Shown here: positions 1 through 59,505 of the stretch, in pieces
How the letters are laid out: each line of letters starts with the position of its first letter
How positions within the stretch are numbered: the first letter of the stretch is position 1
Assembly (NCBI GenBank): GCA_034509925.1
Contig: CM067526.1
Location: 3,136,001 to 3,200,000, forward strand
Origin: Hirudinaria manillensis
Taxonomy: Eukaryota; Annelida; Clitellata; Hirudinida; Hirudinidae
Direction of reading: 5' to 3'
Length of the DNA stretch: 64,000 nucleotides
The notes under the pieces: generated by a model
What the model saw: only the letters and a program-made list of their open reading frames with translations
Told to the model about the DNA's origin: nothing
The model's database searches: none
Translations under genes and position numbers: made by a program

Positions 1-706
1 ATAGCCGTATCTATTTTCGATTCAATTCGAGGTTCACGTGGCAGAAATTGCTTTTACCTGGATCAGGTCAAAAACTCGGTGCTATATACCTGTGAAGATG
101 AATTGAGTCTTAAAAAAAAAGAGTTCGTTAATCCTAAGATTTCAGTCCGGGAAAAATCCGTCATTTCACTTTCGGCTTTAATCGATTTATTAATGCATAA
201 ATAAAGCTTTGAAATCGATTTTGTAGAATTGCATTTGAGGTGGGTGTTGATAGTTTGCTGCATATCTAACAATTCGTCGGAAAGGGTTAAGCATAACAAA
301 AATGTCATTAAAATGTGACATATTTACGATTGTATTATTCACTAAATATATAATGAGATTAAAAGTTAATTTCTAATTTGAACCAATGGAATGCCAAGAG
401 TCAAATCACTTTCAAAGAAGACAAATGTCACGTGGAGTGTCGTCTCCATCCTTCATAAAGCCTCAAGCGAAGCAGAGCAGACGAGTCATCGAGTTGGCAC
501 AAGATGGGCACCGAGTACGCTTTTCGAAAACGTTGCCTAATTTTTGAAATCACTTTAAGATAATTGTAAATCGTTTGTTTAAATTAAATTATTGATTATT
601 AATTAAAATTTAACCGATTTAAATGAATTTCCTTGAGTGGTTTATCTTTTATTGTAAATACTTATATTTTATTAATTTTCATTCCAAATAATAGCCCATC
701 GTCGGC
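1..706. other. Upstream region, no supported gene
   Basis: This stretch precedes the phosphatase gene and should contain its promoter and 5' leader. I see no exon with splice sites and no family motif. A 40-codon ATG frame at 425-547 is rich in Arg and Lys and lies in a locally GC-richer patch. It could be an upstream ORF in the leader or chance. The rest is AT-rich. Confidence 0.5.
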
Positions 707-3700
707 ATGGGATGTGCATCCTCGCGTTTAGTTGCTGGAAAAGGCAAGTCAAAGATGTCCAATGTAAGCGAAGGTACAAAGCTTTTTATTAAATATTGAT
801 TCTCTCTGAGTGGAATGGGCTGTACCTGAAGTGTATCAATGCCGGTTCAGCTTAATGGATTACCTAATGATGATGCTTATATAAGGAAGCGGTGATGCCG
901 AGTGCGTTCGTGTGCGCTGCCAGACCCCACTAATAAATTTCACCGCTGTTGCTTCAATTAATTACCTAATTAACCGATCATTACTGTCGGCACTAATTAG
1001 AAGCTAATTGATTAATTAACAATGGCCGCCACAGTTCTCTACGCAACAGTGGTCATTCAGAAATGGGTTAGGAGGTGGCTGGCAAGACACAGGCTGAGGT
1101 ATTTGTGTTCCTGGCAGATATTTCAATCTTTGGAGTACGATGAGGAAGGGAAAGACACGGTGGTTGGTATTCGTACTTGAATTTGTGGCTTACACTGCAT
1201 CCCTATTGGATGGCGTAATTAATTTTGACAAAATTGGCAGCAAGTTGATTAAACTAGTAAATAAAAATTACAAAATATTTTGAATTAATTTTTATTTATT
1301 TATTTATTTTGTTCGATTTAGCTCTACAATCTCTACGCAGATTTGATCCAATTCTACAAAGAAGGAAATTCTTTGAGACCGAATTCTTCGAGTTCAAAAA
1401 GTGAGTTGAACTTCGATTTTGTGATGCAAGGAACTGTTTCATCGCAGTTGGACCTTAAACCCATCGTCTCGTGATCACAGAATTCAAACGATTTATACTC
1501 GTAACTCCAAATCAAACAACCTTCTGACAGTCCAGTGTTTATTGGTCTTTGAACTATTTTTACAAATTTTTAAAATTCAAAATTTCCGGATCACAATTGT
1601 TCATTAAAGAAACTTCTATAATTCTTGGAGGATTTCAATTTCAGGGGATCTTGGCAAATTGCACGAGGCAGACAATAGCAACATGATGGTATCAAAGAGT
1701 TACAAAGGTGTCCATCTTAAATTCCCTCTGACAAAAGACCAGCTGGTATCGGTCATGGATTCATTCAACAAAAATCAAGTGGGTATGTTTTTATCGCATG
1801 TGAGTGTAGGCGTTACTCGCACGTGGGTCTATTTACCGTTGGCGGGTACCCTCTTTTCAAAAGCACGATGACAATGATGATAATAATAATGTTCTGTTGA
1901 AAAACATTTAATTTTAATAATAATCAAACAACTAACAATCATAATTTATTAAAAGTGAAACCGATCACGAAACGAATTCTTAAGCGAATTAAAAGCCAAT
2001 CGGCCCCTGGCACTACAGACATCTGTATCTATGCTCATTGAAATCGATACTTGCTTGTATTTCATCAGGTGCTGCACGTCAAATACGTCATCCAGGTGAT
2101 AGCCAAAGCCAAGCAGATCCTAATGAGCCTCTCCAGTGTCAACGTCATCAGTGTTGTTAATCACCAGAGGTTGGTGGTCTGCGGAGATCTGCACGGAAGT
2201 TTCAGGTGCCTCGTCCATGTTCTGGAAAAGGCGAGTTTAAAGTTCGGACATCTGTCATTAATAATTATAATAATAATATTAATAATAACAACAACAATAA
2301 TAATAATATTAATATTAATAATAATAATGATAATAATAACGACTGTTGTAATGAGGTTTAATCAGGTTTCTTGGTAAATAAAAGCATCTTCGACCTCGAG
2401 CGCATTCTCATGTATTAATCTAGCAAGATTAATTAAGGATACAATGAAAATAAAACACAATCAATATTATTATTATTATTATTATTATTATTTATGTTAC
2501 TATTACTGTGATAGAGATAATAATTAAGCTCGTTAAATATCGATTGTGGCCTAATTAATTAACGGCTAATTAACGTCGGAGAGGTCGAGATTAATCCGCC
2601 ATTGCAGGCAGACGACTTAAATGAAACTATTTTTAGAAAAACAAAGCGCACCAGAAATAGATTGTTTCAAGCCGTCTCTCCTGTGAATGCCTCCAAGATG
2701 GAGATGCTGATAATCATAATCATAATCATAATCATCTTAAAAATTAATTAACGACTTTGTTGTCATCTGCATTTGTACGTCGTGGTGGAACAGGTGAGCG
2801 TTTAATTAGTCAGACGTATTGTTTGTCACGTGACTCGTGGCTCCGACCTGGATGTCTTTTGAGACCGGATTGATGGATATCAATTGAATTGAGATACAAT
2901 TCGAATTGAAACTCAAGACGTTCTCTGAAATTAAAAAAAAATAGATTAACTGTTACATTTCTTCTTGGATTTCTTCATGAAATTCAGTAAATATGCCTGA
3001 AATAAAGTTAAAATAATTTGGTGATCAAATTAAGGAATAATAATGACAACTAATTGCAGAAATGAGATAAATGAAGAATTTTCATGCTCTCATTATCAAT
3101 TAGAATACTTTTTGCTATTTTGTTTTAAATAATTAATCTTATCGCGATTATTATTGTTGTTGTTATGATTAATAACTTATTTTTTCTCGATTCTGTTTCA
3201 CGATTTTAAAAAACTCATTAAGAAATTTCACTTTTACTCTGCCCAAATGTTGAAATCAAACATTTCACCGCACCTGTGGCTCCACAGAACGGTCTGCCGA
3301 ATAATGGTTTGATGTACTTGTTCAATGGGGACTTTGTGGATAGGGGAGCACAGGGGATAGAAGTTCTCATCACCATCCTCCTACTCCTCATCTTCCAGCC
3401 CAAGAGCGTCTTCCTGAACAGAGGCAACCACGAGGATTTCGTCATAAATGTCAAGTGAGCTTTTCGGAGATTTTATAATTTGAGTATTTATTTATTTTCT
3501 TAATTATTCAAAATAATGTATGCAATTTTTAATGATTTGTACGATTTCTAATCAAAATCCTAGGTACGGATTTCAAAGAGAGTTGAAGGGAAAGTATGGA
3601 GTATGTTGCCAACTTATTAACTTGATTAAACTATGTCTCATTAACTGATGGGTCCCAATTTATCTTTCATTCTACAACGTAATACAAAATAATTCTCATA

Positions 3701-13396: not shown

Positions 13397-14100
13397 TAAG
13401 ACGGGTTCGATCGAATCATGCTAAGTGTCGTTTAGTATTAACCACGGCTAAGATTGTTGAGTTTTTGTGTTCCAATCTCTGGCACTTTTCAATGTTACGA
13501 AAGCAACTTTTCTCAGTTTGACTGGAAGATTTTGTTGTAGGTGGCTGACCAAGTTTGAAGGCTGCTTGGTTAAAGGCTACATTATGCTTTTGCCCGAATA
13601 TTTATTTTGTTTCATTTTCCAGAAAAAGGTTGATATCATGAAGATCTAAAAGACATTCAAAATTCAGTTGTACTTATGATTTTCAAAAATTATGGTGGTT
13701 ATGCCTTTGAATCTGAACTATAAATGTTGTTTTAGGGCTGAGTTCAGACAGAATTCTAAGCCCATGGCGTTGGTCTGAGTGGAGTAGTTGATTGATGTGG
13801 TTGAAATTGAACTTACCTCCGTTTTTCTTTAACAAAATACGAAACCAAAATATCCCAGAACGTATATCAGTTACCATATTTTTCGAGACCTGAATACAAT
13901 TTTTATTTTAATTTATGGTTCAAAAGAACTCCCCATCCCGTTTTATGACGTCGGCTGCGGCTCGGATTGCGACCGTTTCGTAAAAACATCAACAACGGGG
14001 GATCAAAATATCATCTAAGTTCCATAATTTTGTAATAATATCTTTAATTTTCGTCATGCCCTTTCTTGACCTAAAATAGCAGACGACTAATATCGCCGAG
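13397..14100 (+). other. Intergenic region
   Basis: Contains the 3' UTR of the PDP gene and the presumed promoter of the large orphan gene. Only short, motif-free frames occur here. I see no tRNA, repeat element or exon. Confidence 0.5.
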
Positions 14101-17100
14101 ATGCATCTGCCGGGAAATCAATCGGAACTTGATCAGAGTAAGCGATGGTAACTTATGTGAGTCGTACGAAGCCTACTTTGACATTGTGTTCATTCTTCAG
14201 TTTTGACGACGATATTTTATTTGCTCAACATCCATCTGGTAATGTTCATACTTGCATGTGTGGCTTTTGAAACTTTTTACAGTCTGCAATCTCTTGCTAG
14301 AGTTATTTCTCGGACATCAGGTCAAGGTTAGTCCGAAAAATCTTCTGCTGTTAAACCTGTTGATGCTTAAGATGTAAAAGAAATTTATATTGCAGTTGTC
14401 ATTAGGAATAATTCCACCAACTTTGGTAATCACAACTCAACCGCTGGAAAGCTGTCGGTATGCCATCGCTTTGCCTGTAGACCAAGCTTCATGAACTTCA
14501 TTATCCGAACGCATTCGAATGGATCACCAGAGTCCATTATTAACATTTGCGAAGGCCGGATTTACAAGAATTCATCTTTGTTTTTAAGGGTCCGGATCCG
14601 TAGAGATTCGTTCGCCTCTGTTCTTTTAATACCGAGTTTATTAGAAAATCAGGGAGGTTGTTCAAGACAAGTTGTCCGATATTGCAGTACAGATTCAAAC
14701 GATAATAGGAACAAATGTGCCCTTAAATGCTTAGGAAGCAAACTGAAGTTTTACTGTAGAATATTCCAGATGTTTGATGAACATTCAGGAGATTCGGCGC
14801 CAAGTAAATGTGAGTTCATCTTAAATAAATTGGATGAGATATATTGTTTAAAGATTCATAGCGATTTCAATAATTTCGTTCAACGAGCCACTGGCCTTAA
14901 AGCTCTTGCAATAGACCAAAAAAGTAAAGATGTTGTAAAATGTCTATCTACCCAGACTCGGAGAAGGCGATTGCTAGAACAAGCGAAAAAAACACAAAAT
15001 AGAGATTTTGTCAAATCTAATTTAAAAGACGCGCGAAGAACTATTAGAAATAACATATCTGGTAATCTGGGAAATTCCAGTATAACAGCCATTATCGATA
15101 AATATTTGAAATCACGAAGCTTTTTTAACGGACTTAATCCTATGTTTTGCACCGGAGTTTTGGATTCGAGAGGAAGATCGTGTACTATCTGGAGTTCTAT
15201 TCCAAAGAATCTGATTTTCAATCCGATGATTGATCAGTGCAACAACAACGAAAAAGATTCTAAAATTGGTAGCGATGGAGGATATTTGGATTTAGGGGAC
15301 TTTCCAAAGGACTTATCCAGAGGTGATCTTGCCCTTATTAGGGTCAGAGAGGGTTCAAGCGAGTCTTTTAGACGAGGTTCATCTGACGTCCTTGGAACAA
15401 AGATCAAGGACCTTTCTCACATCTTTAACAATGGAATGGACAGAATAGTACATGATTTGTGGATCTATGGATCTATTCCAGTTGTCTCACAGGCAGAATT
15501 TATGAGGTTAAAGTTTGGAATTTTTCCGGATTCATATGTGGAAAAGCACTGTCTAATAGAAAATTTCGGACATAAAGATAAGCATAAAGACGGCGATGGA
15601 AGTGACGGTAAGTATTTCATTTCCGATTGTTAAGAACTTTCTCAGAACTTAACTAGACTCGCCTAAATCGCCTCATTAATTTTAATATTTATTTTAATTT
15701 TATCGAATCTACTTTTCTTATTTCCCAGAACGTTTTGGCATCCGACTAGCAAATAGTGATTGTGTCAATCGATTATCTAAGTTAGTTGGTTCTACTCACG
15801 GATCCTCGTTAATGACTCTCTCAACAAAGAGAAGTATTCACGAGAAAAAGTTAAACAAAAACATAATTCCCTGTTATCTGCAGATTAGAACAATCGCTTC
15901 CATCCCATATACAACTTGGAATTTTGGAATTCCATCCGTTTTTGGAGGAAAATCATCAAATAATAATTCCGACTATAATTCTGATCTCAGTAGTGACAAG
16001 ATAAAGTTTAGGAAACCTGAACTAGAAAATGATGAAAGTCTGTTGAATGTTAGAGGCACATTGGCCGACATAATTGAGGAATTTTCAGGTGTTGACTGTT
16101 TTGCTAAAACCACACTGGCAAACACGTGCGAAAAAATGAAAAAGGCTTCGGAGGAAATACGCAAGACTTTTGCCGGCATCAACGACACTTCAAATAACAT
16201 TGCAAATGTTATGGCTGGTTTTCCCAAAGTGGCTATCATCAATGGTAATTGCCAAGGTAGAAACAGGCATATTTTTTGCCCAGAAACCGACGATTGCTAC
16301 CTGAAGCCGTCTGAAATACTATCGTTACCCTCAAAAATGGTTACCGATACTGCATTTCAGTTTATTCCAATAAAATATCCACTAGTCGATGAATCTTATG
16401 ACTCTAGTCAAATGTATCCAGGATTTCCACTGGAAATGTTACAACCTCAATTCATGTTTGCAGGAATGTCCGAGATCAATAAACGCTCGCCAATTTATTT
16501 CAGAGACACTAAGAAGCAGAAATTACAGAGTCACAAAGTGTCGCTTAAAAATTACGACCATCTAAACGCCAAGAAATACGACGAGCTGACCAATTCTAAC
16601 TTGAATATCAGAGAACCAGCAGAGCACATTGTCGACTATTGGTCTGATGACGGACAAAGGAAATGTGTCAAGCGTTCTTTCAATAAAAAATGCAAAGCCA
16701 TTTCTAGGAGCAGGAAACCGTCACCGTGGAAATTATTTGGTAAAAGTAGACCAAAGACTAAAGCCAAAATTCAGAAGCAATCTGAAAAGGATGAGATCTT
16801 ACGAAGAACTCTGAGCTGTACAGTTGAAGGTAATGAAGGAAATGTTTCAGGAAACGACGAGTGCATTCCAATCCCTATTAAATTAACCAAGTTCTTTCAT
16901 TCTTTGCCCACCTGTGGCAGTCAGGGGTTGAGTAAAACCAACTGGATCGGGGTCCACATGGACGATTTCGATGATTCAAATTCTTGGGATTCTAAAGTAA
17001 ATCCTATGGAATTTAATATTGGCATAAATAAAAAGAAAAATATGAAGAAAAAGATCCATTATCCTGAACCTCCGAATAAACCGATCCCAAAGCCGCGCAA

Positions 17101-20100
17101 GCAGAAATACGGAAAGGCAAGCGGCTACGAACTCGATACGAATTCTGAATCAAGTTCAAACGCAAAGTCCGATTATTCGCGACCGTCGCCCGAAAAATAT
17201 TACGCCAGAGAGAATTACCACTCCAAAGATGAGCAGGCCTACAGATATTACCAGCCCTCCAATCCGAGTCACTACTATAAAATAAAGAAGCCTTACCTTG
17301 AGCAAAGTCCTAAAGGCTGGCAAAATGTTCTCAAGAATTGCTTCAAACTGAAGGTCCATGGTTCCAGGGCGTATTTGGAACCTGTGCAGAAAGAAGGAGG
17401 AAAGAAAGTTTATAATCGAGAAAGTATGACCTTCCTGAAAGTTCTTCCGCCATCTGAGGAAGCGACGGAGTCTTACATGAAATCCGAATCGGTTGCTTCG
17501 AAAATATATCCAAATCGATCGAGTGAAGAATACATTTTCAAGGAGCTTGTCAAAATTCCGGACGAATTCCTCAAGAAATCAGACCATCTATCCAAACAAA
17601 TAAACGTTGTGGAAAACCACGTCAGGAATCTTGAGAAACTACTTGCATATCAATATCATTCTGACATGTCGAGTCACCTAAATTTCAGTAAATCGGATGT
17701 TCCTAACAATTCTTTAGATCTCAAAACGCCCAAAACTTCGGATTCTGGGTTCAATATTATCCACCAAATGAAGCATAAACCTCTGAAAAAAGTGGATTTA
17801 AGTCCAAGTGATCCTCTCGATCTGAAAGCATTCAGTAGCCTGCAGAGTGGTGCTTTAGAGTCCTGCGGGAACATATCCGCCCAAGAAATTCAATCACTTT
17901 TCGACAACTATTTGGAGAAACTTCAAAAAATCTGCATGACGACGGAGCATACGAAAGATATTTGTACTCTCATCCTGGACATAATTTCTAAGCCTGATTT
18001 TAGAAAAGTTAAGATGTCATCATTCGGAGATGAAGCTGTTTTCAAAAACGATCTCCTAGGACTGAACACTGAAGTGGCTTCTCCTCCTAAGAACATGCAA
18101 AGAAACAACCACTCCAGAGTGAGTGATAGGACCTTTGATTCTAGCGAGCTGAGCATCACATACTCTATTGTTGACCTAACGACAAAAGCAGTCGACAAAA
18201 ATAACACATCGACTTGGCCGGGTACAAATATTGAATCAATAATTAATTCCGATATTTTTACAGATTACAATCGCGACGGACTTTCGCATAATAATAATGC
18301 ACCATTTCGAAAGATAAAATATACTAAGAAAGGTTCTGAGCTCGCCTCAAAAGTGAAAATAAATAATTATAGGAAAAAAAACAAACACTGTTATTATATT
18401 ACGAAATCACTCAAAGCCAAAGATGTGCAGAGGATGTGCAAGTCGTGCTGTAGCAATAACAGCATCGCAAGCTCATTTGACGATGTCAATCTGGAATGTC
18501 ACTCTGTCAAAAGCTTTAGAAATCGTGGTCACCAGAATCTTCACAAACATCTGGTTCATTCCACTTCATTGTCGTTTAGAGCAAGAAATAGAAGTAGCAG
18601 CTCTTTCGACAGCTTATCTTCGGCCAAAGATGAGTTGTTCTCGGGCAGTAACGAAAGATCGAGTTCTTGTTGTTCTGCCGACGACTCAGACGATTGTTTT
18701 TCTTCGTTCAGCAACGACAACAGATCAGCAAACAACAATCCTGATCACAAGGCCAACAATTTTTCCGATCGAAAAGTTTCTTGTCGCAAAACGGTCATAC
18801 CTTTCGAAAGGAGTTTTGGATCGCACAGCAATGCAAGCTCACATTCCCATGCATCAAGGGCTCAAAGAAGGAGAGAGAGAAAATGTTTTTTTGAGATTTC
18901 CATAAACAATCACAATAAGAAAATTGATCATTCAACGAAAATTCAAGTTAGTAACGATGGCCATGCAAAACATCAAACCATTATTTTGGACGAACATCGT
19001 TTTAATTGTCGTGAATCTGGAATGGCTTTCGAGAATCAAAGTAACGTAACCACGAACAAATATGGAATGGAAAGCTCAATAAACTCTGAACTGGCAATGA
19101 AGGACACAAAATCCGATATTTCCTTTTCTACTGGAACGTCTTTGTGGACTGCTAAAAATCTGCCGGGCATGAACTTGTACTTGAGTTTATCGGATATTCA
19201 GAAACTTGAACAAGATGAAAATGATTCGAAGATTTGTGACTTTTTTGCTGACGATTTAAAATCCTCGTTTAAAGTGAAACCAGATTCTAGTAACAGTTCG
19301 GCCTCGAGGAGAGAGTCGTTTTATTCCGCCCAGTCTTGCACTTCCAAAAAATGTCCAGAACTTAACTCAACTATTGACTCTGCCTCTAGTCTCGAAAATA
19401 ACGACAGTGCAAGTTCCATGCTCAACTATGAAACCCTGACTTTCTACTCGAAGTTGATATCACCTCCGCATAAATCCTCCGTTTTCACAAACGCAAACTT
19501 CTTTAGAGAGAGCGAACTGTTGCCCCAAAGAACACTGAGTACTTATGAAAATTCTAAAGAAAACTTCAAATTCAGAAATCCGCAAAAAATGCTCAAGAGG
19601 GGGAACAAATTGAGTCCGTTTGATTGGATTGTTGGACAAAGAAAGGATTTTAGCACCAGAAACGGTGTTCCATTTGCAGCAGACGGAAGAAGTGGCATTT
19701 CGGGTTTTTCTTCGTCGAAAAGAGCGGAAGTTAATGAATACCACCTAGATATTGATTCAATTCTGGAAAAGGACCGCGCTTGTAATTTTATAGAAATCGA
19801 AAGCATGCCTGAAAATGGAATGTTTACAGCTAAAGAGGGCATTGATACATACGCTCACTATGCATGCGACGATCAAAATAACATGGAACCGATAGATGAT
19901 TTACACGGAAGCTATTTATTTTCTTCCACATTAGAAAGCGAGAGGCAGACTGAAGTTGTTGAAAATATTCGTAAAAAAGATGACCTTTGGAGAGCGACAC
20001 AATTCGAGACTATAACTGAATCTGTAATGTTGCCATTTCTTAAAAACTATTTCGAAGATGTAAAAGCTACTTGTCACAGCATCGATCCTGAGCTAGTTAC

Positions 20101-23100
20101 CGCAACTGATGCGACTTTTTCAGCTGATGTTTCGGGAAGTAACAGGCAATCATCGGGCATTGAATATATTCGAACGAAAGATGACGTTTGGGATTCTAAG
20201 GACTTACATATTGTAGACAAAACTGAAATGTCATCGGGCGAAAAAAATGATTTAGACACGAACGCCCGGTATGCAGGCAATGACTTGAACTGCATCGAAT
20301 CGTTTCAAAATGTTTTGGTCCATGGAACTCTCGAATCCGATTCAACGATCATCGACACAAAAGAAATTCTCATAAAATCTGAGATTGCATATTCTGCAGA
20401 TTTGGAAGTGCACGACAATATTGTAAATGCAGTAGCTACATGCGAGAAAGTCACTGAAAATGTTCAACTTTATGAAATACAGGAAAGGGCAAAATCCAGT
20501 ATAATTCCTGACCATGAATTTAATGATTACTTTCAAATTCACTCTCCAATCGTAGAAGATGGTGAAGCCGATTTGGGGAGGCGAGACAAAGTCGAATTAG
20601 ACTCAAATAGTAATGAACTCTGCATTGATACGGAGATCGACACAAATCATCGTGAAGAGAATAAAAATATAATTGTAATTGATCCAAACGAACCTAATGA
20701 TCCGAAATCAAAAGATGACATTGCAGCCATCGAGGAAAGTGTAGATTTTCCGGCCAGGGTTCTTTTTCCCGGTGAAAAACTGTTTTTGTTTCACAAGCTA
20801 GCAAAGACTTTCAAAAACAGCATGGATATCTTCGACATACTTTGTCTTCCCAGCGAAATTAAAAGAGTGGTTAATGTAGATGTCGGAATTCAGCACTCAA
20901 ACGATGAAATGATTGATAAAGAATGTGTTAATAAAGAAACAATTGCTTGCGATTTGGAAACAAAGTCATGCGATTCAACTGTTCACGTACCAAAAAGTGT
21001 CACGGCATCTTTGAACGATCAACATTCTCCTTCCAAGACAGAAGACGAAGAACCTCAAACTTTGAAATCTGAAACGCAAATCATTTCATGCCAGTTTAAT
21101 GCCGATTCGAAAGTCGCCGACGAAGACTCTCCGGAAGAAAAAAAAGAAAAGTTCTTCAATGAATCCACTCTCTCAACAGCTATTCGTACAGACAATGAAA
21201 TGTTTCTACAAGAGAAAGACGTTAAAGATGACGAAAGCCGCCAAGGTTCTACTTCTAACTTGGATGTTTGCAATAAATTGGAAACTATTTCAGCGCACCA
21301 CTTCAATATTGAGGCTACTGGATTTATCCCACCAGTTCCAGATATTTCAAGTGAAGGGCAAATCAGAGGTGATCAAACTGAGATGATCAATCTATCGTCA
21401 AACAGAGGACCTCTTCACTCAGACGAAGAGAAACATTCTTGTTCTCCTGCCATCGCTAAGGGCACGGCTCCGATTGACAATGCACAAAACGAAGTCCTGA
21501 TAAAAGAAGAGTCTATTGACTCGAAAACTGATAACCTCGAAGGCGACGTCAAATGCACTTTGCCCGTTGAAGCAGAAACTCGAAATGGCTGCACTGTTGA
21601 CTCAGAAATCCAAACCGATTTTGATGTGACAACAGTAACAGAGTCTGTGAACTGTGAACAAAAATCAATTGTCGAGAATGAGATTTTGCAACGTAAGGGC
21701 GCAACAGAAGTGCCTGGAGACAATCAATGCGCTGCTGACAAATGCAAACCTTCTGTCAACTTGTACAAATCTAAATCCTTGACATTAGAAGTTGAAAAAC
21801 GTCAGTTTGAAGAAAGCCTGAAGGAACGAAAAACGAAGTTAGAAAGCAATAAAAACTACGGAACTCGTGTTTCACCCGATGGAGCTAAGAAGATGATTTG
21901 CAACAAGGTCTCTTCAACTTCAGTAAATTCAAGTTGGAACATGCAATATGCTAACAATTTCAGCGATCCAAGATCTATTCCAAACACAGTTTCTGAGCAA
22001 TCCGAATTGTTTTCTTATAACGCCTTAGTCATTAAAGATTTGGAACACGAAAATGTGCCGAGCGATTTGACCTGCGGCTTGGAAACAACTCTTGATTCTA
22101 AAGAAATGTCCACGGAAAATACAGAAAGCACCGAAGAAAATAACTTTTTGTCGCTTATCAAGAAAAAAGAGAAGCAGATTAAAACCGATTTTAAAAAGCA
22201 CAGAGCCATTTTGCAGAGACCCAAGTCGAAGAGATTGCCAACCGGTACCGTAAGAAAAGAGATAGATCATATTAAAAAACAAGTTCAGGGGGGTGATCCC
22301 AGCCATGAGTTTACCATTTTTAATCTTAGCTTCGACACTGGAAAGATGTGTGAACAGGAGCAACTAGGCTCAGAATCGCTGCTTATTGGCAGAGATCAAA
22401 GCCCAAAAGTAACTGGAAACGTGACTCACAGACACAAACCCGCCTGTCAAAAGAAAACCAGTGAGGTTCTGAAAGCTGTGGAAAGAATGAGGTCTCGGGA
22501 AGACTGTAAAACTCTACCAGACCGCGACGCGGCAATGCAAAGTTCGAAACAAATTTCAAAACTACCTGCTATCAGAATACATCCGAATTTTAGAGAAAGT
22601 CACAATTCGCCCAAATGTAAGCCTGACTCGATCAAGACGCAAGACACTTCTATATCTCGACATACTTCAGCTTTGAGTCCCGAGAATTCGGATGGCGAGG
22701 TGGAATGTTTCGATATGAGTAAGTTGAACTTACACTCCCAAAAAATTGTCAGAAAAAAGCTTAGACGGGAGAGAGAATGCAACTTATTCAAACTTCGTAA
22801 TTTTAATCTCGATGAAATAGTGCAGCCGCTCGAGGAAAAATGTATGCTGACGACGACAAACGATCAAAGCCAAGATGAATTCATGCCTTGGAAATTCGGC
22901 CAAATTTACGATCAATTAGAAGATATTCAGAACAAGAGGTGTGACCAGGCTCACAAACGATGGAGAAACATACAGAATGAAACAAAGCTTGCTGTTAGAG
23001 AAAGTTCAATCAACTCCTGGAAAATTCCGGAAAAGCCTCGCATATGGCCAGCGAAACAGCGGAACTGTGGAAGATTTTCTCCACCGCCTAACGACGAGGA

Positions 23101-24154
23101 ATGCTCTAGCGCTATTGCTTCGCAATACGACGCTGATCAACACAAACCTTGTGGAATTCAAAGAGTACCGAACTTTGTTCCAAGAAATTTGAAAAATTCC
23201 ACTTCTAAGAAGGTAGAATTTGCCAAGGGCATGTTCAGCAGCTCAAAGTGTCACTTGAACGTGCTTTTAAATGAGATCGATAAAGCTTCTAAAGAGAATA
23301 TTGATATAGAAAATAAGCAGAAAATCGAAGAATTGGAAAAGGAAATTGCTTTGTACAAGTCGAGAATAAGCGAAATGAAGCGCCACATCAAAGTAAAGCA
23401 CTGTGTAGGAGATCAGGAAAGCCGCATCAAATTGTACGGAAATAGAAACATGCACCAGCACTACGAAGATCTTTTGAAGATTTTTAAGAGGAAAGAATAT
23501 GGTTCCAAAATCAGGATGAACATGTTAAGACATCAGTATATGATCAACAGCATCAGACGTAGCTCTGTGCCCCAAGAGAAATTATCCGCATTTCAAGAAA
23601 GGTGCGCAAAGGGAAAGAGAAAGGTGTCCAAACCGAGGCATAGTTCATGTTTAGCTGAATTCGAAACAAAACCGCAAGCAAAAAGCTACATTTCCTCTGA
23701 TACTTGTCCGGACGATTCTATTTATTCAGCTAAAGTCGAGTCGAGTGGATTAGGCAACTTGCTCGAATTCCCTAACTGTGAATTTTTGAAGAATTACAAA
23801 TGCGGACAGAGCGAAACTGCCGAAATCAGAAGATTGAAAAATAGTCTTGGCCACTGGCAACGTGAGGATAACACTAGCAGGCCACGCAGACAAAACGAGA
23901 TTAGGAAAGTCCTCAGAGAAGTAGCACAAAGACGAAACCGTCCAGATAAAAGCAGCACCTGCTGCAAAAAGGTTCGCGTTATTTTCGGCCACAACAAGAA
24001 ACCAAAGTTTAAAAGAAGCTCTGGCACCCTATCGACTCTAAGTTCTGATTGTCTTGCTCGAAAGCTGCGAAAACCAATAGCTGCCAATAAAGAGCCAACA
24101 GCATCCGAGTGGGTAAGGACAGCGTTTCCTTACAAGAAAACTTGTGACGTTTAA
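14101..24154 (+). CDS. Giant single-pass membrane protein, unrecognised (about 3,264 aa)
   Basis: I do not recognise this protein. Exons: 14101-14137, 14201-14320, 14396-15607 and 15729-24154. Donors are gtaagc, gtcaag and gtaagt; acceptors are cttcag, ttgcag and cccag; phases 1/1/1 agree at every junction. Exon 4 alone is 8,426 bases. Residues ~15-37 (FYLLNIHLVMFILACVAF) form one hydrophobic helix after a 14-residue N-terminus with an NQS site. The rest is polar and rich in Ser, Asn, Lys, Asp and Glu, with many charged clusters and a Ser-rich block near 18600-18760. A degenerate internal repeat lies around residues 1825-1990. A short coiled-coil segment (KIEELEKEIALYKSRISEMK) sits near residue 2980, and the last ~250 residues are strongly basic. 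No enzyme or adhesion motif is visible. A scaffold anchored in a membrane would fit, but that is inference. The exon structure is well supported; function is unknown. Confidence 0.8.
19838..20350 (+). repeat. Degenerate internal protein repeat in the giant gene
   Basis: Two motif families each occur twice. ENIRKKDDLW (near 19960) matches EYIRTKDDVW (near 20160). DTYAHYACDDQNNME (near 19840) matches DTNARYAGNDLNCIE (near 20255), and each of these is followed by a TLES stretch. The order is X-Y-Y-X rather than strictly tandem, so the duplication has been rearranged or has decayed. Confidence 0.55.
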
Positions 24155-25827
24155 AAAGCAGTGGTTTTGGTCATAAATCCAAATATTTGGAGCTCTGAAG
24201 ATACATCATTTTTAATATCAAAGTCATCTTTAACGATCACGTCTTGTGTATGCATTGGCCAAAGGGCAGCCATTCTTTGGAGTGCATTGCAAGGAGTGAT
24301 TTCTGGAGTGATTTTGTTCTGTTTATTTGATCGGCAAGGAAAGAAATATCAGAGAAATTCAAAGAAATATTGAAAATGTTACGAACTCCATCCTGGTCAT
24401 CTTCGTCGTACGGTGACTTAATAGACTTCGAGCAACGATTTAATCTTGCTTTCATTGAACCAAGGGCGATTTGTCACTGATAAAATAAAATTTAACAAAA
24501 AAAAGTTCGCTTCATAAAAAAAAACTTTGAAAACGCAACGGAGGCTTTTTCAACCTAAATAAACTGTTAACCATTCCTACTTAAAAAGGCAAAATGAAAG
24601 TCATTCTTTTAAAAAAAATTGGAATGCTTAAAATACTAGAACGAAACTCATTTAGCACTGTCTCTGTTTCAGCTTTTCATTCGATAATTTATTCGCAATG
24701 TATTTAACTCGACTTTGAAGGCACCATTAATGTTTTTATCTAACATGACATAACGCACAACGATGTGTCGAGTTTTTCGTAAAGACGCGATTATGGAAAA
24801 GGCTAGAAGAATAGAGTGGAGATGGGGTGCAAAATACTTTGGTGTTCAGAATAACGAATCAAAGTGTTACAAGTAAACTTGTATTTCCCATCATATAAAA
24901 TGAAATAAATTTATTTTGTAGCGATTATAACGATTATATTTTTGATCAAACAAATAAAACTTCTCAAATAGATTCTCAGATGATTTTTCCGACGTACTCA
25001 AATTAAGTTCTTGCATGTCTAATGTTATCACGCAATCTCAATTTGAATGATAAAATGCTATTAGTACCACTTAATTAATATCGTAAGGATAATAGCCACA
25101 GCCCGCATTTCGATAAAGATAAGGCTTCCTGAAAAGTTGCCAGATCATTTAACGACAATTGTGTCAAGAATAGACCAGCTTTATTCGTTACGTTTTCATT
25201 TGATTTCCAATCATTCTATTGTTGCGCAATTAACTGGTCGTTTACTGACTCATTACTGACACACTTAAGTCTCGTTAAAATTACTCACGCTTATTGTATC
25301 AATATTTTAATATAAGAAATATTTTCTGAGAACGAGTTTCGATTCTGCACAAGCAGGAGTGCCGCCTGATGTTACAATAAATCGTTAACTTGAAGTAACT
25401 TTCTGAATTATGAATTAAAAGCCGTTATTTTTTTTAATGATAATTCACTAGCACGATGAGTGTCCTTACTGCCGCAGACAGGATGCATGATTAACTAAAA
25501 ATCTGAATTCCTATCAAATTATGCCGGGGTACTTAACCGAATGCGCATCAATTTTCACTATAAATGTAAAAAATAATTTGCTAAAAAGTCTTTATCATTG
25601 TTAGACATTATTCACCTTTCTTTACGCACAACATTCACACATTAATTGGAACCGGAGCTAAGCTGGTCGAGTGGTTGTTGTTTTGGCCTTCGAGAGAAGG
25701 TGTTGATAATTCGCAGCTTTCGTTCGGCGATTGATTTGTTTGGATTTCTTTGTTATTCCGAGCCTAAAAATATTAACTATGAACGTATAGTGATTAAGAA
25801 AGTTGATATCAGCTGTTGTTTACTTGT
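24155..25827. other. Intergenic region with poly(A) signal
   Basis: Begins with the 3' UTR of the giant gene, with AATAAA at 24484-24489. The remainder is AT-rich and leads into the 5' leader of the TAO kinase gene. The frames seen here (for example 25646-25831) lack motifs. Confidence 0.55.
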
Positions 25828-32202
<6,375 letters not shown>

Positions 32203-33377: not shown

Positions 33378-36300
33378 TCACATCACGGACCACTTGGAAA
33401 AATAAGTGCTGATAGGATTGCATCCTAGCATCTCGGTGGTTCTGAGAGAATTGAGTGACGTGCTCTTCCTGATGGCTCTCAGCTTAGTGATGCCTTGCGG
33501 ACTGATGGCAAATGCTCCGCCGATCTTTAATCTTCTTGCTTTCTTCCTGCCAAAGTTCTGTTTGATTCTCATTTCTTTGTGTACCTTTTTATCTCTAATG
33601 AGCAGATTCTTGGCATGGTTAACTTTTAATGCTTTTGAAAAAGAGTGACCAGGGAAGAAGCTTCTATTGCAGTAATCATTGTGGAAACAGACAGAATCAG
33701 GGTGGGTTCTGTTATCAAAATTTTGAAAACCATGGTCTCTTTGACCCAATGTTTTTGGCATTGTTTCGATGGCATTGCTTGAATTGCCCAAACGACGCTT
33801 GCAATCGGTCGAAGTCAAAGGTCTGCTCTTTTTCTGAAAGTCACACATCTTTATTTTGTTGCTGTGAGGGCATTTGGCCAAGAAAGATTTTGTTTCTTGA
33901 ATGGAATCAGATGTTCTGGCAAAAGTTGGGCAACATGAGTTGTGGGGAACTCTGCTTTGGAAAGCTTGCTTTTTTGAATGGGGAGTAATGATATTTTGAA
34001 TTTCTGCAAAAGAATTTTGCCTCGCATCCGTTGCAGTACCATTTCCTTTTCTGGACTCCAGATTGTCTTTTAATAGGCAATATGCATTGACAGATCCTCC
34101 ATCTTGTTGCAAGGCTTGGAAACATTTTGAATTGCTGTTGTTTCTGCAAGAGTTTTGCATCTGGCACAGCATCGGTCTCATTGGCATGCTAGCAGCCTTG
34201 TGACCTTGGAAGTCCTTATTCATTTGATGAGCTTGAATGACAACCTCAGGATTTCTTAACGATGAGGACATTTTATTTGACAACAATGACATGTAAGGTT
34301 CCTGCTTATCTCCGCCAATGTAACCTCTCTTAATATTTTCTAAACCTGAGTTCAGATGAACATTTTCTGAAGTTTCTGGAATTTGCCTTCTTTGTGAACT
34401 GAAAATTGTGTCATTTAGCTTGGTGCTGCAGGCATGGGATTGATGAGAACTGACCAACTGATTAACTACCCTTTCACCTTCATTACCTTGCATCCTTGGT
34501 ACTTGTAAATTGATCTTTCCACTTTGCCTTTGATACACAGGATGTTCTGCTGGATTTTGGAAGCTGAAAAACTGAAATGTGTTAGAACTATTCTGAGATT
34601 TTTCTGGCACTGGTAAATTTTTTGGAACTGCTTGATTTGGGTTAATAGAATGAGGCACCTGCTCCACACAAGCTCTGGGATAAAGCATACCATTGGCAAA
34701 TTTGTTGGCAGTAGGTGTGTTATTATGAGTCTCTTTTGTCCAGTTGCCAAGTATATTTTCTTTAAAAATTGTTGCCTGTGCTGGGCAATTATTTATTGTT
34801 TGTCTATAAGTAGAAAAATCAACTTTTTCATTCTTTTTAGAATTGCCGTTCAAAAGAAGCGTCGGTGAAAAGAACCTCATAGAGGAAGACAAGGGCTCCC
34901 TTGCCTGAAAGTCATGGGGACTACCCTTCGGGTTGGCATACCTAACATTGGGTGAATACATGACTACATTGTCTGAGGAGTTCGGCCGAAATGTCGTCGA
35001 TGCGGGCAATGCCTGGACTTGATTTTGACAAAAATTTGGAACGTTTGGTGCTTGGAAGTCAGGACCTTGGTAAATGTTGTTGGCATTACTCCTCAAACTA
35101 GGATTGACAAAGTTTTCAGGATTCATACTCAAACCATTGTTTTGAGGGAACAACAAATTAGCAAAATCAATATTGTGTGGTGCAGGATGGTTTTTTATTA
35201 GCTTGTCATACATTTCCAATCGCTCGCAGACCGTCTTTTCTAAGCACTCCATTTTCCTCTTTTGGTCCAGTTCGTAATCGATCATTTGCTGACGCGTGGC
35301 ACTCAGCTCTCCTATAAAATTCGATCTTTCTCTTTTTAATGTGTCTCTTAGTCTCTCTAATTCAGAAAGTAGAAGATTTCTTGTTTCATCTCTTTCTCTC
35401 AGCATTCTTTTTACAGACTGCATGCTCAATAAAGAATGATCGGCAGAATAATTTGGAGCGAGAAAAGGATGTTGACTTCGGTGTCTCCTTCCGCTTCTGG
35501 GTTTGTATAGCACTTCCTTCATTATTCTACTATCTGGACATTCTTTCACTAAATGATTAATTGTTGGAGAGATTTTTCTGAATTTCCTAGATGAATTGTT
35601 GTTATTTTGGTCACGTTCTTTCCTTTCCTTGTAATTTATTTCAAATTTTGCCTCAGATTCATTCTGTAGCACTTCACTGGCATTTTTCATATTTAGCAAG
35701 AATCTTCTCTGAACTGAGCATGGTGAAGATATATAAAATTGTCCAAAACATCTTTTTTCCAAATTTGTTCTATCTGTCCTTGAAACATATTTGATTTCCT
35801 CAAAACAGCTGTTCTCACCATTATCATAATTCTTTTCACCAAGATCATATTCTGAAATCTTACATCTATTTTGTTGAATTTGTGTGATCATTTCAGGTCC
35901 CTCACATTTTTTAATTTCACTAGCTTGAAGTTCATGGTCCTGATTGTATTGCACTTTCTCATTGGACACTGACTCCAAACAATTATCTTTTTTAACAACT
36001 TGCAATTTTTCTGGATTATGTGTGTGGAATATCTCTGGATCACCATCCAGAAAGACATTGAGGCAACATTCTGTTCCATTTAAATTATCTACAGACTTAT
36101 TATTAGAATCACTTTGATTGATTTCAGAGTCTCTGGGTACATTCTGAGGGGAATGCTTCTCACAAATGTCACTTAATTTATTGCTATTCAAATTGCAAAT
36201 GCAAGATTCAAAGTTGAGATCCTGAGAAATACTTTTAAAATCTTCCGAGGTTCCTGACTTCTTAACCGATGGCTGGCAGATATCTTTCTCATTGCCATGC

Positions 36301-39300
36301 ATTTCTTTCAACTGATTGCAACTTTTTAGAGAACATTGAAGAGGACATGTGGAACAGCATGTCGGATTTGCATCGTTTTTATCTGGAGCTTGATTGCATT
36401 CATTTCTGTCCTGATTGAATACTGACAGATGTTCTTGCAAGGCTTTCATTAGCTCTGACAACTGTTGAGTGCATATCATGTTGTGCTTGGCGTGAGCAGG
36501 CTCGATATTATTCCAGAGATGACTAAAGCATCTGAAAATTGTGCTGCATTGATTGCAATACATGTTTTTATCTGAATCATCAACTCTTTGGGCAATTAGG
36601 TGGATTGAGCCATGGTTACTGTTGTTATTATTATTATTATTTGTATTCTGGAAGCCACCATCAGAATCAACAAACTCCACATGTTGTCCAATATTTTCAA
36701 AACACAATTTCATTTGATTTTCACAGTTTTCAAAATTGATGTTTGATTTAGGACATTCATGACAGTAATTAAGTTCATCTTTTTCTGACTTGAAGGGCCT
36801 TGCTTTATTTTGTCCAATCTCATCAAAATAATCACTGTCTTCCAGATGACAGCAATGATTTCCAGCCACATCACCTGATGAACTAACAGATGCCTCAGAT
36901 GCTGGAAAGCAATATATGGATTCACAAATATCACACTTGTGTAAATTCAGTCTCACTTGCCTCTGCATTTGAGAACAATCGTGCACCAAATGGCAGAAAT
37001 CATTTCCAAATTCTTTTTGATGATGATGACAATTTCTGCACTGAGGATTCGGTGATGTTATGGAACTTTGGCTTCTTTGCTTACAGCAATGACCATCGCT
37101 TTCTTGTGAATCTGTCTCATGAGGGATTGCATCTTCACCACACCAACCTTCATTAATCAAAGTTCTGAAAGATTCCTTCCTTTTTGAATCTGTTTGATAA
37201 GTGCTCACACGACAGAATTTTTTGAAATTTATTGGTAGTTGATCAAATTGTATCAAATCAGTTTTTGAAAGTGATCTTCTAGGATTTTGAGGCTCATCAA
37301 AATTAGGGGATGATTGACTAATGTTGGGCTTGAGGTCACAACAAGCACCATCAATGGCCTGGAGAGGGTAAGAAGATCCCACCTGAGGATCAGAATCTTC
37401 ATTAAGAGCTTCGACTTGACAATTATTCCCATTAGAATTAGCAATGTTTCTTTGTTTCAGGTTTTCCTTATTTACTATTTTATGCATATCCCTTCCATCA
37501 TCTCCTATGCTAATCCTGACAACATCATTGCTGGAACCTTCATGGAAGTCCTTCATGCTCTTGGACCATACAGCCTCTTCAAGGGCTTGGTCTATGTAAT
37601 CACTGGAACATTTCTGCCCCAGAGAGGAGCATACTGAAGTAGTGCCATAGCCATCAAAATCGTTTTTGTTGGCAGAACCATGGCTTCTAGTGATCTTATC
37701 AGCAAACTCATCCAAGTTATTAAAAGCTTTTGCATCATCATAACTAATGGCGGAAGTATCATAGTTATTAGCTGACCTATCGTTGTTAGTGACTGGCCTA
37801 TCATTATTAGAGGCTGATCTATCATTGGCTGACCAATCAGGATTAGCATCTGGCACATCACAAGCAGTTGCTGGCTTATCCAAAGTGTTGGCTGTATGAT
37901 TAGGTGCAGCTGTTATCTTATTGAAATCAGAAGTCATGACTTGGTCAAAACGATCATATTCGCTAATTGCCCAGTTACGCATCATGGCCTCATCCTTTCC
38001 TTCGACATTCCTCCCGTAAAGTCCACTCCTACTGTTTTGGCGGTCATCGCAAGTGGCCTCATTGAACATAGCCGATATGTTTTTCCATTTCCTAAATACC
38101 TCCGAGGGTATGCGTTCTTGGTGTTCAGCATTAGTTCTCTCCAGGTAATCTATATATTCTTCCCCTGGAAACTCATCCATATGAGAAGTTCGTGGTTTCC
38201 CACTGAGGCGATGAATAAAATTATTTTTCTCTTTCGGGGTGGCTCTAGCTTTAGGAATGATGATATCCCTAAATTCCTTTTTTGGTGCCTGCTCAAGTTT
38301 TTTCTCAATTTTTGGTTTTGAACTGAGAGCTTTGGGGGCTACAGTCTGAGTGGTCGCTTCATAAGATGGTGGCTTGCATCGAGTCGAAGGTTTTTGAGAC
38401 TTGGAGGATTTCTTGATATGCTTGAGGTAATGAGGACTAGAAGGATCAGATAAAATATAACTTTTTATGCTACTTACTGGTCCTTTGGCTTCTGAGAAAC
38501 GCTTAAAATTTTTGCTGTTCACGTCAGAACCCATTCTTATGTTTTGAGGCACATTCTTATGAGAATTTGAACAATTGTGCTGAAAATCATTGACCACATC
38601 ATGTAAATCAAGCTTCAGTTCATCTGGCAAGAAAATTTGATTTTCATTTGTGGTATTGGCATCTTCATCAAGATAACCACCACCTTCATCGTGTGGTTGA
38701 TTCTTCTCTGATTCTTCATGTTCTAGAATCTCCCATGAATCAATGTTATCTTTTGGGTCTTGGTCCTTTGAATTTTTTGAATCCTTGTCATGTTCAATCT
38801 TATCACACTTTTTGTCAACAGGATTTTCCTTTCCTACTGAACATAGATTTTCATCTGAAGTTTCACTATCATCTTCATCACAATAATAATAACCATATTC
38901 ATCATTGTTATTGTTACACTGGAAGTCTTCTTTTAAGTCAATGCTCTGTTCAAAGCTGTTTTTGATGCTTTTAGATCCAATAGCTCCATAATAGTACTTC
39001 CTATCAGTAACAATCATATTATTTTTCAATACCTCATGATACCGATTTCTATATCCTTCTAAGTCAGGCAAGTCTATACCTGTTTCTTGGGTCACATTGC
39101 AATTTGCACTTTGATTGAATTCAGGTTTTGAAACAAAATTTTCTTTTTGAACACGAACTCGTGGTACTGGTATCTTTTGATTTAAGGGATTCCTACTTTT
39201 GGCTATGTCCGACAATATAAATTGGCTTTTACAGGCCATTGGGTTTTTAGAATAAAGATGTACTTGCCACAATTTCTCTTTAGCTAAATCCAACTCCTGT

Positions 39301-39464
39301 GTAAGCTCCAGATTTCTTGCAGCACTTCTCTGGACTATTTGCAAGAATTGCAGAGCTTGACTATCATAACTGCTCGGCGGAAGTTCAAAGTTGGGCTCCT
39401 TCGCGGTATTAAACTCTATGCGTGATGCCAAGCGTTGCAACTTACCTCCAGGACTCGATTCCAT
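33378..39464 (-). CDS. Large Asn/Ser-rich protein with Cys/His clusters and a coiled coil, unrecognised
   Basis: Single open frame of 2,028 residues that I do not recognise. The N-terminus (residues ~35-65) is an amphipathic, probably helical segment (LQIVQRSAARNLELTQELDL). The middle is acidic and rich in Asn, Ser and Asp. It has a run of Asn (near 36620-36650) and an NDRS/NNDRP-type micro-repeat (near 37750-37860). Cys/His-rich patches lie at about residues 806-880 (CRNCHHHQ, CDICESIYC), 960-975 (YCNQCSTIFRC) and 1030-1050, suggesting metal binding. A clear charged coiled coil lies at about 1345-1430 (MLRERDETRNLLLSELERLR), followed by a Gln/Asn/Pro-rich stretch and a basic C-terminus (FGRKKARRLKIGG). 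The coiled coil vaguely recalls centrosomal or sperm-tail proteins, which I cannot confirm. A perfect donor (GGAG|GTAAGT) overlaps codons 6-8, so the first exon may be only a few codons long in some transcripts. That an ORF of this size arises by chance is excluded. Confidence 0.8.
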   Translation of the reverse strand: MESSPGGKLQRLASRIEFNTAKEPNFELPPSSYDSQALQFLQIVQRSAARNLELTQELDLAKEKLWQVHLYSKNPMACKSQFILSDIAKSRNPLNQKIPVPRVRVQKENFVSKPEFNQSANCNVTQETGIDLPDLEGYRNRYHEVLKNNMIVTDRKYYYGAIGSKSIKNSFEQSIDLKEDFQCNNNNDEYGYYYCDEDDSETSDENLCSVGKENPVDKKCDKIEHDKDSKNSKDQDPKDNIDSWEILEHEESEKNQPHDEGGGYLDEDANTTNENQIFLPDELKLDLHDVVNDFQHNCSNSHKNVPQNIRMGSDVNSKNFKRFSEAKGPVSSIKSYILSDPSSPHYLKHIKKSSKSQKPSTRCKPPSYEATTQTVAPKALSSKPKIEKKLEQAPKKEFRDIIIPKARATPKEKNNFIHRLSGKPRTSHMDEFPGEEYIDYLERTNAEHQERIPSEVFRKWKNISAMFNEATCDDRQNSRSGLYGRNVEGKDEAMMRNWAISEYDRFDQVMTSDFNKITAAPNHTANTLDKPATACDVPDANPDWSANDRSASNNDRPVTNNDRSANNYDTSAISYDDAKAFNNLDEFADKITRSHGSANKNDFDGYGTTSVCSSLGQKCSSDYIDQALEEAVWSKSMKDFHEGSSNDVVRISIGDDGRDMHKIVNKENLKQRNIANSNGNNCQVEALNEDSDPQVGSSYPLQAIDGACCDLKPNISQSSPNFDEPQNPRRSLSKTDLIQFDQLPINFKKFCRVSTYQTDSKRKESFRTLINEGWCGEDAIPHETDSQESDGHCCKQRSQSSITSPNPQCRNCHHHQKEFGNDFCHLVHDCSQMQRQVRLNLHKCDICESIYCFPASEASVSSSGDVAGNHCCHLEDSDYFDEIGQNKARPFKSEKDELNYCHECPKSNINFENCENQMKLCFENIGQHVEFVDSDGGFQNTNNNNNNNSNHGSIHLIAQRVDDSDKNMYCNQCSTIFRCFSHLWNNIEPAHAKHNMICTQQLSELMKALQEHLSVFNQDRNECNQAPDKNDANPTCCSTCPLQCSLKSCNQLKEMHGNEKDICQPSVKKSGTSEDFKSISQDLNFESCICNLNSNKLSDICEKHSPQNVPRDSEINQSDSNNKSVDNLNGTECCLNVFLDGDPEIFHTHNPEKLQVVKKDNCLESVSNEKVQYNQDHELQASEIKKCEGPEMITQIQQNRCKISEYDLGEKNYDNGENSCFEEIKYVSRTDRTNLEKRCFGQFYISSPCSVQRRFLLNMKNASEVLQNESEAKFEINYKERKERDQNNNNSSRKFRKISPTINHLVKECPDSRIMKEVLYKPRSGRRHRSQHPFLAPNYSADHSLLSMQSVKRMLRERDETRNLLLSELERLRDTLKRERSNFIGELSATRQQMIDYELDQKRKMECLEKTVCERLEMYDKLIKNHPAPHNIDFANLLFPQNNGLSMNPENFVNPSLRSNANNIYQGPDFQAPNVPNFCQNQVQALPASTTFRPNSSDNVVMYSPNVRYANPKGSPHDFQAREPLSSSMRFFSPTLLLNGNSKKNEKVDFSTYRQTINNCPAQATIFKENILGNWTKETHNNTPTANKFANGMLYPRACVEQVPHSINPNQAVPKNLPVPEKSQNSSNTFQFFSFQNPAEHPVYQRQSGKINLQVPRMQGNEGERVVNQLVSSHQSHACSTKLNDTIFSSQRRQIPETSENVHLNSGLENIKRGYIGGDKQEPYMSLLSNKMSSSLRNPEVVIQAHQMNKDFQGHKAASMPMRPMLCQMQNSCRNNSNSKCFQALQQDGGSVNAYCLLKDNLESRKGNGTATDARQNSFAEIQNIITPHSKKQAFQSRVPHNSCCPTFARTSDSIQETKSFLAKCPHSNKIKMCDFQKKSRPLTSTDCKRRLGNSSNAIETMPKTLGQRDHGFQNFDNRTHPDSVCFHNDYCNRSFFPGHSFSKALKVNHAKNLLIRDKKVHKEMRIKQNFGRKKARRLKIGGAFAISPQGITKLRAIRKSTSLNSLRTTEMLGCNPISTYFSKWSVM
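37740..37860 (-). repeat. Coding micro-repeat (NDRS/NNDRP units)
   Basis: Related units of about 21-24 bases containing tatcattattag / gatctatc-type sequence encode repeating Asn-Asp-Arg-Ser/Pro blocks (residues ~535-575 of the 2,028-residue protein). Confidence 0.6.
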
Positions 39465-40457
39465 GCAAGCAATGACCTAAGCTTTTTTGTTAACTTATTT
39501 GTTATTGTGACTATTAAAACGAAAAATTTGGTGTCATCATAAACTAAACTTCGGCTGGAAAGCAGGCCATTAACTTTCACGTTTTACACCTTATTCAAAA
39601 TAGCGGAGAAACGTCTCAGAAATCAAAATTTTCATTGGCGTTCCTATGGCGGAGTTGTTGTCTCAATTAAAAAAAAAACTCTCTGATATTAAAAATTACT
39701 TGTTTGAAACAATATCTGCTCAAAATTGAGTAGAACCATAAATTTTGCAATTTTCCGAAGGGAGTTCGATATCAACGGAGACCGGTAAATCCAATAGAAC
39801 TACATGCCACGGAAAAACCACAAACTCGAAAAATTGCAAGTTCCACCAGTTTGCGCATTATTTTACTAATTAAAAAAAATTACGTTTTCGCGGGAAAGGA
39901 ATGATGAGAACTAGGCAGCTAGTTAATCCATTAAAAACATTTATGCCGAGACTATGATGGGAATTTAGACGATTTTAAAACAGACATGGCTAGACGTTCA
40001 CTTTACAAATGATTTTCAATAAATGACCACTAATGACGAATAGTTTCAATATTATTCTACACCATACAAAGATTATACGTAACAAGTCGAATTTGACATG
40101 ATATGACAAATTTCAATCCATTTGCTTTAATTTGCAACACTGGTAAGTAATGTTAAAACAGAATTGATTCTTTATAGAACGAAAAGTGAATTGAAAATAA
40201 TATGAAAGTGCCAGCAGCTTAGACCACCTTTGATTTTTTTTTATTTCGACAGCCTCATTTCACTCTGAGTCACGAAAGGTGTGCCTCGTTAACTATAAAT
40301 CTTCAATAGTAACAATTTTTTAAAGGAACCTATTTTTGTTATGCTTGCGGTAATGCTCCGTTTTGAAGTTAAAATCTACATTTACATGTTTATGAAATTA
40401 GATTCAAAAGGCCTTGACCGTAGTATAAGATTCTTCCTTTCCTGCCGTAGTTTAAAA
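39465..40457. other. Intergenic region between two minus-strand genes
   Basis: Contains the promoter and leader of the 2,028-codon gene and the 3' UTR of the receptor gene. A minus-strand AATAAA (tttatt on the + strand at 40240-40245) lies about 210 bases after the receptor stop codon. No exon is visible. Confidence 0.55.

Positions 40458-59505
<19,048 letters not shown>

Follow-up and report, generated by a model that had tools for sequence, protein, structure and literature searches.

The window that we analyzed, a 64,000-nt stretch of a leech genome (G000:C1:3136001-3200000 in the own-genome coordinates G000), contains a protein-coding gene that we regard as real with near certainty, and the predicted product of this gene is, by Pfam, NCBIfam, PDB, and own-genome searches, a giant orphan protein of 3,264 residues. 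Our working model, held tentatively and at a little short of even confidence, is an N-anchored membrane tether or scaffold with a cytosolic tail. Features of the gene are collected in Table 1; coordinates are positions in the window, and residue numbers refer to the spliced 3,264-residue model.

Table 1 Features of the predicted giant-exon gene, in window positions.
Feature	Position	Strand	Evidence
Predicted exon 1, translation start at ATG 14101	14101..14137	+	In-phase splice solution; donor rank 9/129
Exon 2 (predicted), with hydrophobic helix at residues 17-35	14201..14320	+	In-phase splice solution, hydropathy, shuffles
Exon 3, encoding residues 54-456, with a split codon at each end	14396..15607	+	Open frame of 420 codons; donor rank 1/129
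Intron 3, 121 bases	15608..15728	+	Top donor and top acceptor of 13400-15800
Exon 4, residues 458-3264 plus stop	15729..24154	+	2,807 open codons, codon usage
Nearest AATAAA after the stop codon	24484..24489	+	

A preliminary description of this locus had proposed four exons that join in phase to encode about 3,264 residues, with one exon of 8.4 kb. When shifts of up to 3 bases were tried at all six borders and GT/GC-AG combinations were allowed, exactly one combination fitted near the proposed borders; it remains in phase and yields 3,264 residues plus a stop codon (24152-24154), so that the proposed joins stand, and the last exon measures 8,426 bases. The introns are 63, 75, and 121 bases long, and an in-frame stop at 14077 lies upstream of the ATG. 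We ranked candidate splice sites across the region 13400-15800 with a matrix based on the general metazoan consensus; on this ranking, intron 3 uses the first of 129 donors and the first of 144 acceptors, and introns 1 and 2 use donors ranked 9 and 22 and acceptors ranked 3 and 12. At the thresholds of the shuffle test described below, the real sequence gave five chains, three from ATG 14101 and two from ATG 14242. The three chains from ATG 14101 end exon 2 at 14257, 14320, or 14326, with donors at 14258 and 14327 as the alternatives, the latter of which also keeps phase. These alternative donors and the start at 14242 leave both the start codon and the 3' border of exon 2 provisional. An unseen exon may also lie further upstream.

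The length of the open frame identifies the locus as a gene. With a stop probability of 0.066 per codon, estimated from the base composition of the exon, the 2,807 open codons of exon 4 would arise with P of about 10^-83, which argues for a gene and not chance, as the preliminary description had held for a frame of this size. The only other listed frame of at least 150 aa inside exon 4 has 180 aa. A codon-usage model built from 4,634 codons (the longest frame at each of eight kinase loci in this genome plus the neighboring phosphatase) ranked the annotated frame best of six in every third of exon 4, with small margins. In exon 3 the annotated frame came second, at -0.059 against -0.035 for a reverse frame that contains 25 stops; exon 2 offers too few codons to discriminate. 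For comparison, 200 kb from elsewhere in the genome (35% GC) contained five frames of at least 800 codons, two of them reverse transcriptases and three of them identical tandem copies. As the longest of these reached 1,232 codons, exons of the size seen here are rare in that sample; the window holds two.

The neighbors of the gene are a pyruvate dehydrogenase phosphatase (PDB 3mq3, E 9e-99) on one side and, on the other, a gene with many introns at about 25.8-32.2 kb. The latter, on the plus strand at 25820-32200, has many exons and reads as a TAO kinase, with ATT and ATC repeats in its introns. The second giant exon of the window lies on the minus strand at 33378-39476 and comprises 2,032 open codons of Asn/Ser-rich sequence devoid of a hydrophobic helix; Pfam, NCBIfam, and the PDB gave nothing for it within an E limit of 1, and the 200-kb sample contained no exon as large. 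Kinship between the two giant-exon proteins was considered and rejected (best E 0.14 against exon 4). At 45323-46444 lies an almost perfect (ATC)n array, 1,122 bases long with 98% matches, that is open in several frames on both strands.

Several features elsewhere in the genome were recorded in passing. At G000:C8:3218655-3267020 there are 26 tandem protein kinase matches of near-equal score, about 1.9 kb apart and each in a 471-codon frame, and smaller protein kinase arrays occur on C6 and C11. Three 1,232-codon frames in tandem at G000:C2:4052919-4064558 (loci L021-L022) are base-for-base identical with a spacing of 3,972 bases, and an adjoining 713-codon frame reads like a reverse transcriptase. 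Matches to cox1 of equal score were found at nuclear C9:3026446-3027786 and mitochondrial C23:31-1371, the former being either mitochondrial DNA recently copied into the nucleus or a product of the assembly. The mitochondrial contig C23 (15,581 bases, N beyond about 5 kb) carries cox1, cox2, a short reading frame taken as atp8, cox3, tRNA-Gln, nad6, and cob in that order, where all names except cox1 and the tRNA come from reading the translations. Sipunculus is tabulated with an identical arrangement between cox1 and cob, and the leeches studied so far are reported to share a fully conserved mitochondrial gene order (PMC4866719). The genome also gave 63 antistasin matches and a single hirudin match over the cut-off (E 5.8e-6, 26 of 64 positions, internal stop); none of the 14 control genomes, of which the named ones are prokaryotic, matched antistasin, and none of the 14 matched hirudin. 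The mitochondrial gene order and these matches agree with an annelid, very probably a leech.

Membrane attachment in the working model depends on one segment. Hydropathy identified residues 17-35 as the sole good membrane-helix candidate (mean hydropathy 2.39), in keeping with the single helix that had been placed at residues ~15-37. On a flat insertion scale this segment scored -0.8 and the next separate segment +9.2, and none of the five most hydrophobic segments falls in the C-terminal half. To judge how readily such a segment appears by chance, we made 400 dinucleotide-preserving shuffles of the 695 bases that precede exon 3 and set the helix threshold at a mean hydropathy of at least 1.8. 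An in-phase chain of any kind appeared in 33 of 400 shuffles and one with such a helix in 0 of 400, a result that supports exons 1-2. The position of the helix within exon 2 nevertheless makes it dependent on two short predicted exons with moderate splice sites, and exon 2 is 41% T, a composition that favors a hydrophobic translation by chance. Taken together, we consider that the helix is probably in actual use.

The flanks of the helix bear on its orientation. Residues 1-16 include two acidic residues and no Lys or Arg, and residues 37-52 include two Arg and no acidic residue. Under the positive-inside rule, by which flanking positive charge marks the cytosolic side, this pattern predicts a cytosolic C-terminus; the argument is weakened by Glu36, which follows the helix immediately.

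We characterized the body of the protein by charge-hydropathy in 100-residue blocks and 51-residue windows. Six of the first seven 100-residue blocks leaned folded versus four of the other 26, and 67% of the 51-residue windows were classed as unfolded; two islands, near 1141-1231 and 2123-2195, look folded. Residues 1-700 thus appear to lean folded and most of the remainder to be disordered. The huge disordered tail of the preliminary description holds, on this measure, for most residues past 700 and fails for six of the first seven 100-residue blocks. A single-sequence AlphaFold prediction of exon 3 had a mean pLDDT of 33.3. Residues 1801-2600 are acidic and the C-terminal end is basic, the latter as had been described. 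A simple heptad heuristic likewise placed its best stretch late in the protein, at residues 2984-3011, where a late coiled coil had been anticipated; the next best lies at 1069, and all heptad stretches are isolated. No internal protein repeats were found at E up to 1.

We compared 12 short-motif counts in residues 701-3264 with those of shuffles. Eleven of the 12 counts fell within z 1.1 of the shuffles, and dibasic pairs were slightly raised at 71 versus 58.7 expected (z 1.9). N-glycosylation motifs stood at chance level (28 versus 28.1). With no clearly raised motif count, nothing in the tail marks a scaffold. The predicted N-terminal helix and the flank charge favor an anchored protein with a cytosolic tail, but the scaffold role proposed earlier gained no positive support, either from the motif counts or from a relative of known function.

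Two other readings turn on what becomes of the helix. If exon 2 is unused, exon 3 has its first in-frame Met at residue 85 (14491), and the helix would be missing from the protein. The product would then be a soluble giant cytosolic or nuclear protein, such as a disordered hub or a filament-associated protein, with exons 1-2 unused or another first exon in their place and with translation starting at Met85 or in an unseen upstream exon. We judge this unlikely, if well short of negligible: the moderate splice sites of introns 1 and 2, the other donors and the start at 14242 that the sequence allows, the T-rich exon 2 that draws no help from codon usage, the basic C-terminus, and the neighboring giant-exon protein lacking a helix (maximum 0.52) all speak for it, but a comparable in-phase helix exon arose in none of the 400 shuffles and an in-frame stop stands just upstream of ATG 14101. 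Alternatively, the helix could be a signal peptide or a type II anchor that places the tail outside the cytosol, in which case the protein would be secreted or lumenal with a degenerate Cys-rich head.

Evidence on the secreted or lumenal reading comes largely from exon 3, in which Kazal_1 (PF00050) aligned at residues 140-165 with E 0.019 and 0.036. Cysteines 141, 149, 160, and 164 share the 7-10-3 spacing of Kazal inhibitor domains (PF00050; infestin 2f3c), and Kazal appeared in none of four shuffles in which cysteines were kept and the other residues shuffled. The alignment is, however, sub-threshold (14.5 and 15.4 bits against a curated cut-off of 21) and spans 25 of 49 profile positions, about half of the profile; of the six-cysteine Kazal pattern, four cysteines fit, the first is absent, and the sixth is uncertain. 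The cysteine cluster itself is not unusual, being reached by 543 of 2000 shuffles. We regard this half-Kazal as an unsettled hint; were it genuine, that stretch would lie outside the cytosol. The N-glycosylation motifs of the tail also stand at chance and the flank charge pattern points the opposite way; a secreted or lumenal protein seems rather unlikely to us.

Searches for relatives agreed with the absence of a recognized domain reported in the preliminary description. No family exceeded the cut-off when exons 3 and 4 were scanned against Pfam and NCBIfam, or when residues 1-236, 458-757, and 2598-3264 were scanned against Pfam at E up to 10. Against the PDB by sequence, exon 4 had no match at E up to 1 and residues 248-456 had none at E up to 10, and exon 3 gave infestin (2f3c) at E 0.35 and no credible match; a strong match to a known family was thus seen in neither Pfam, NCBIfam, nor PDB. 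Sub-cut-off matches to COG6_N (E 0.15), DUF6483 (0.054), MG280 (0.13), and LnuC (0.042) were taken as chance, as were Spectrin_Anc-1_2 (E 5.9) and infestin. The look of residues 300-430 vaguely suggested TASOR/TEX15, an idea dropped because DUF3715 (pseudo-PARP) was absent among the Pfam hits; the PDB search of residues 248-456 lent DUF3715 no support either. Searches of its own genome (148,429,096 bases in 23 contigs) covered residues 54-456 and 458-3264, 3,210 in all, and matched only the gene itself and no second copy among the best candidates scored, at E limits of 0.001 for residues 458-1457 and 10 for residues 54-456 and 1458-3264. Residues 458-957 had no match in viral contigs. In literature listings on giant disordered, single-exon, Kazal-membrane, SPATA31, and leech orphan proteins this gene did not turn up, though it may have been published.

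We also weighed a rapidly evolved member of one of the known families of giant scaffolds, for example a ciliary, sperm, or cytoskeletal one, that has moved past profile recognition. The mostly disordered tail, a kind of sequence that loses similarity quickly, is consistent with such an origin, as is the arrangement of short first exons and one giant last exon found in mammalian SPATA31; yet no profile exceeded the cut-off in the pieces scanned, no PDB match was credible, and no positive evidence pointed to any such family, and we give this account only a slim chance. SPATA31 (FAM75) offers a close architecture for comparison: its mammalian members have short first exons, an N-terminal membrane helix, and a huge last exon, and are polar and mostly disordered, much like the leech gene with its predicted helix at 17-35 and 8,426-base last exon. 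SPATA31 is, however, multi-copy in mammals, whereas no second copy of the leech gene was detected, and no FAM75/SPATA31 Pfam model appeared either for exons 3 and 4 (E limit 1) or for residues 1-236, 458-757, and 2598-3264 (E limit 10).

Other membrane scaffolds resemble the predicted protein in part. Nesprin/KASH scaffolds are also very long with a single membrane helix, but the nesprin helix is C-terminal and accompanied by spectrin repeats, whereas the predicted leech helix is N-terminal and no spectrin family exceeded the Pfam cut-off in the leech protein (best E 5.9). Kinectin, RRBP1/p180, and triadin combine one N-terminal helix with a long charged tail, as predicted for the leech protein, and hydropathy together with charge predicts an N-terminal anchor with a cytosolic tail as in kinectin and RRBP1. 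The leech tail differs in having isolated heptad stretches only, no internal repeats, and no family match; the heptad heuristic found no long coiled-coil tail like that of kinectin or RRBP1, its best stretches being those at 2984 and 1069.

In the working model, residues 17-35 would act as a signal anchor, with the 16-residue N-terminus on the lumenal or outer side and the ~3,230 residues that follow the helix in the cytosol. A partly folded juxtamembrane region would extend to about residue 700 and give way to a long, charged, mostly disordered tail that is acidic in the middle, forms a short coiled coil near 2984, and is basic at its end. Such a protein could be a long, flexible tether at the membrane, gathering partners in the cytosol or connecting the membrane with some other structure. 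We infer the use of exons 1-2, membrane insertion, topology, the cytosolic tail, and the tether role from these predictions, and the membrane-scaffold reading, itself inferred, is the most economical one. A more specific reading would make it a membrane tether confined to leeches or annelids, more than 3,200 residues long and lacking any known domain, in which an N-terminal anchor precedes a giant, mostly disordered cytosolic tail encoded nearly entirely by one exon and in which the protein serves some structure found only in that lineage; this we consider doubtful.

Animal genomes hold many orphan giant proteins, and the surprise is limited because orphan giant disordered proteins are already known as a kind. 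Without a real anchor the leech protein is still an orphan giant; with one, it would be a membrane-tethered disordered protein of very great length. Leeches serve neurobiology and anticoagulant research, and 8.4 kb open in one exon with no family match provides a direct handle on lineage-specific biology.
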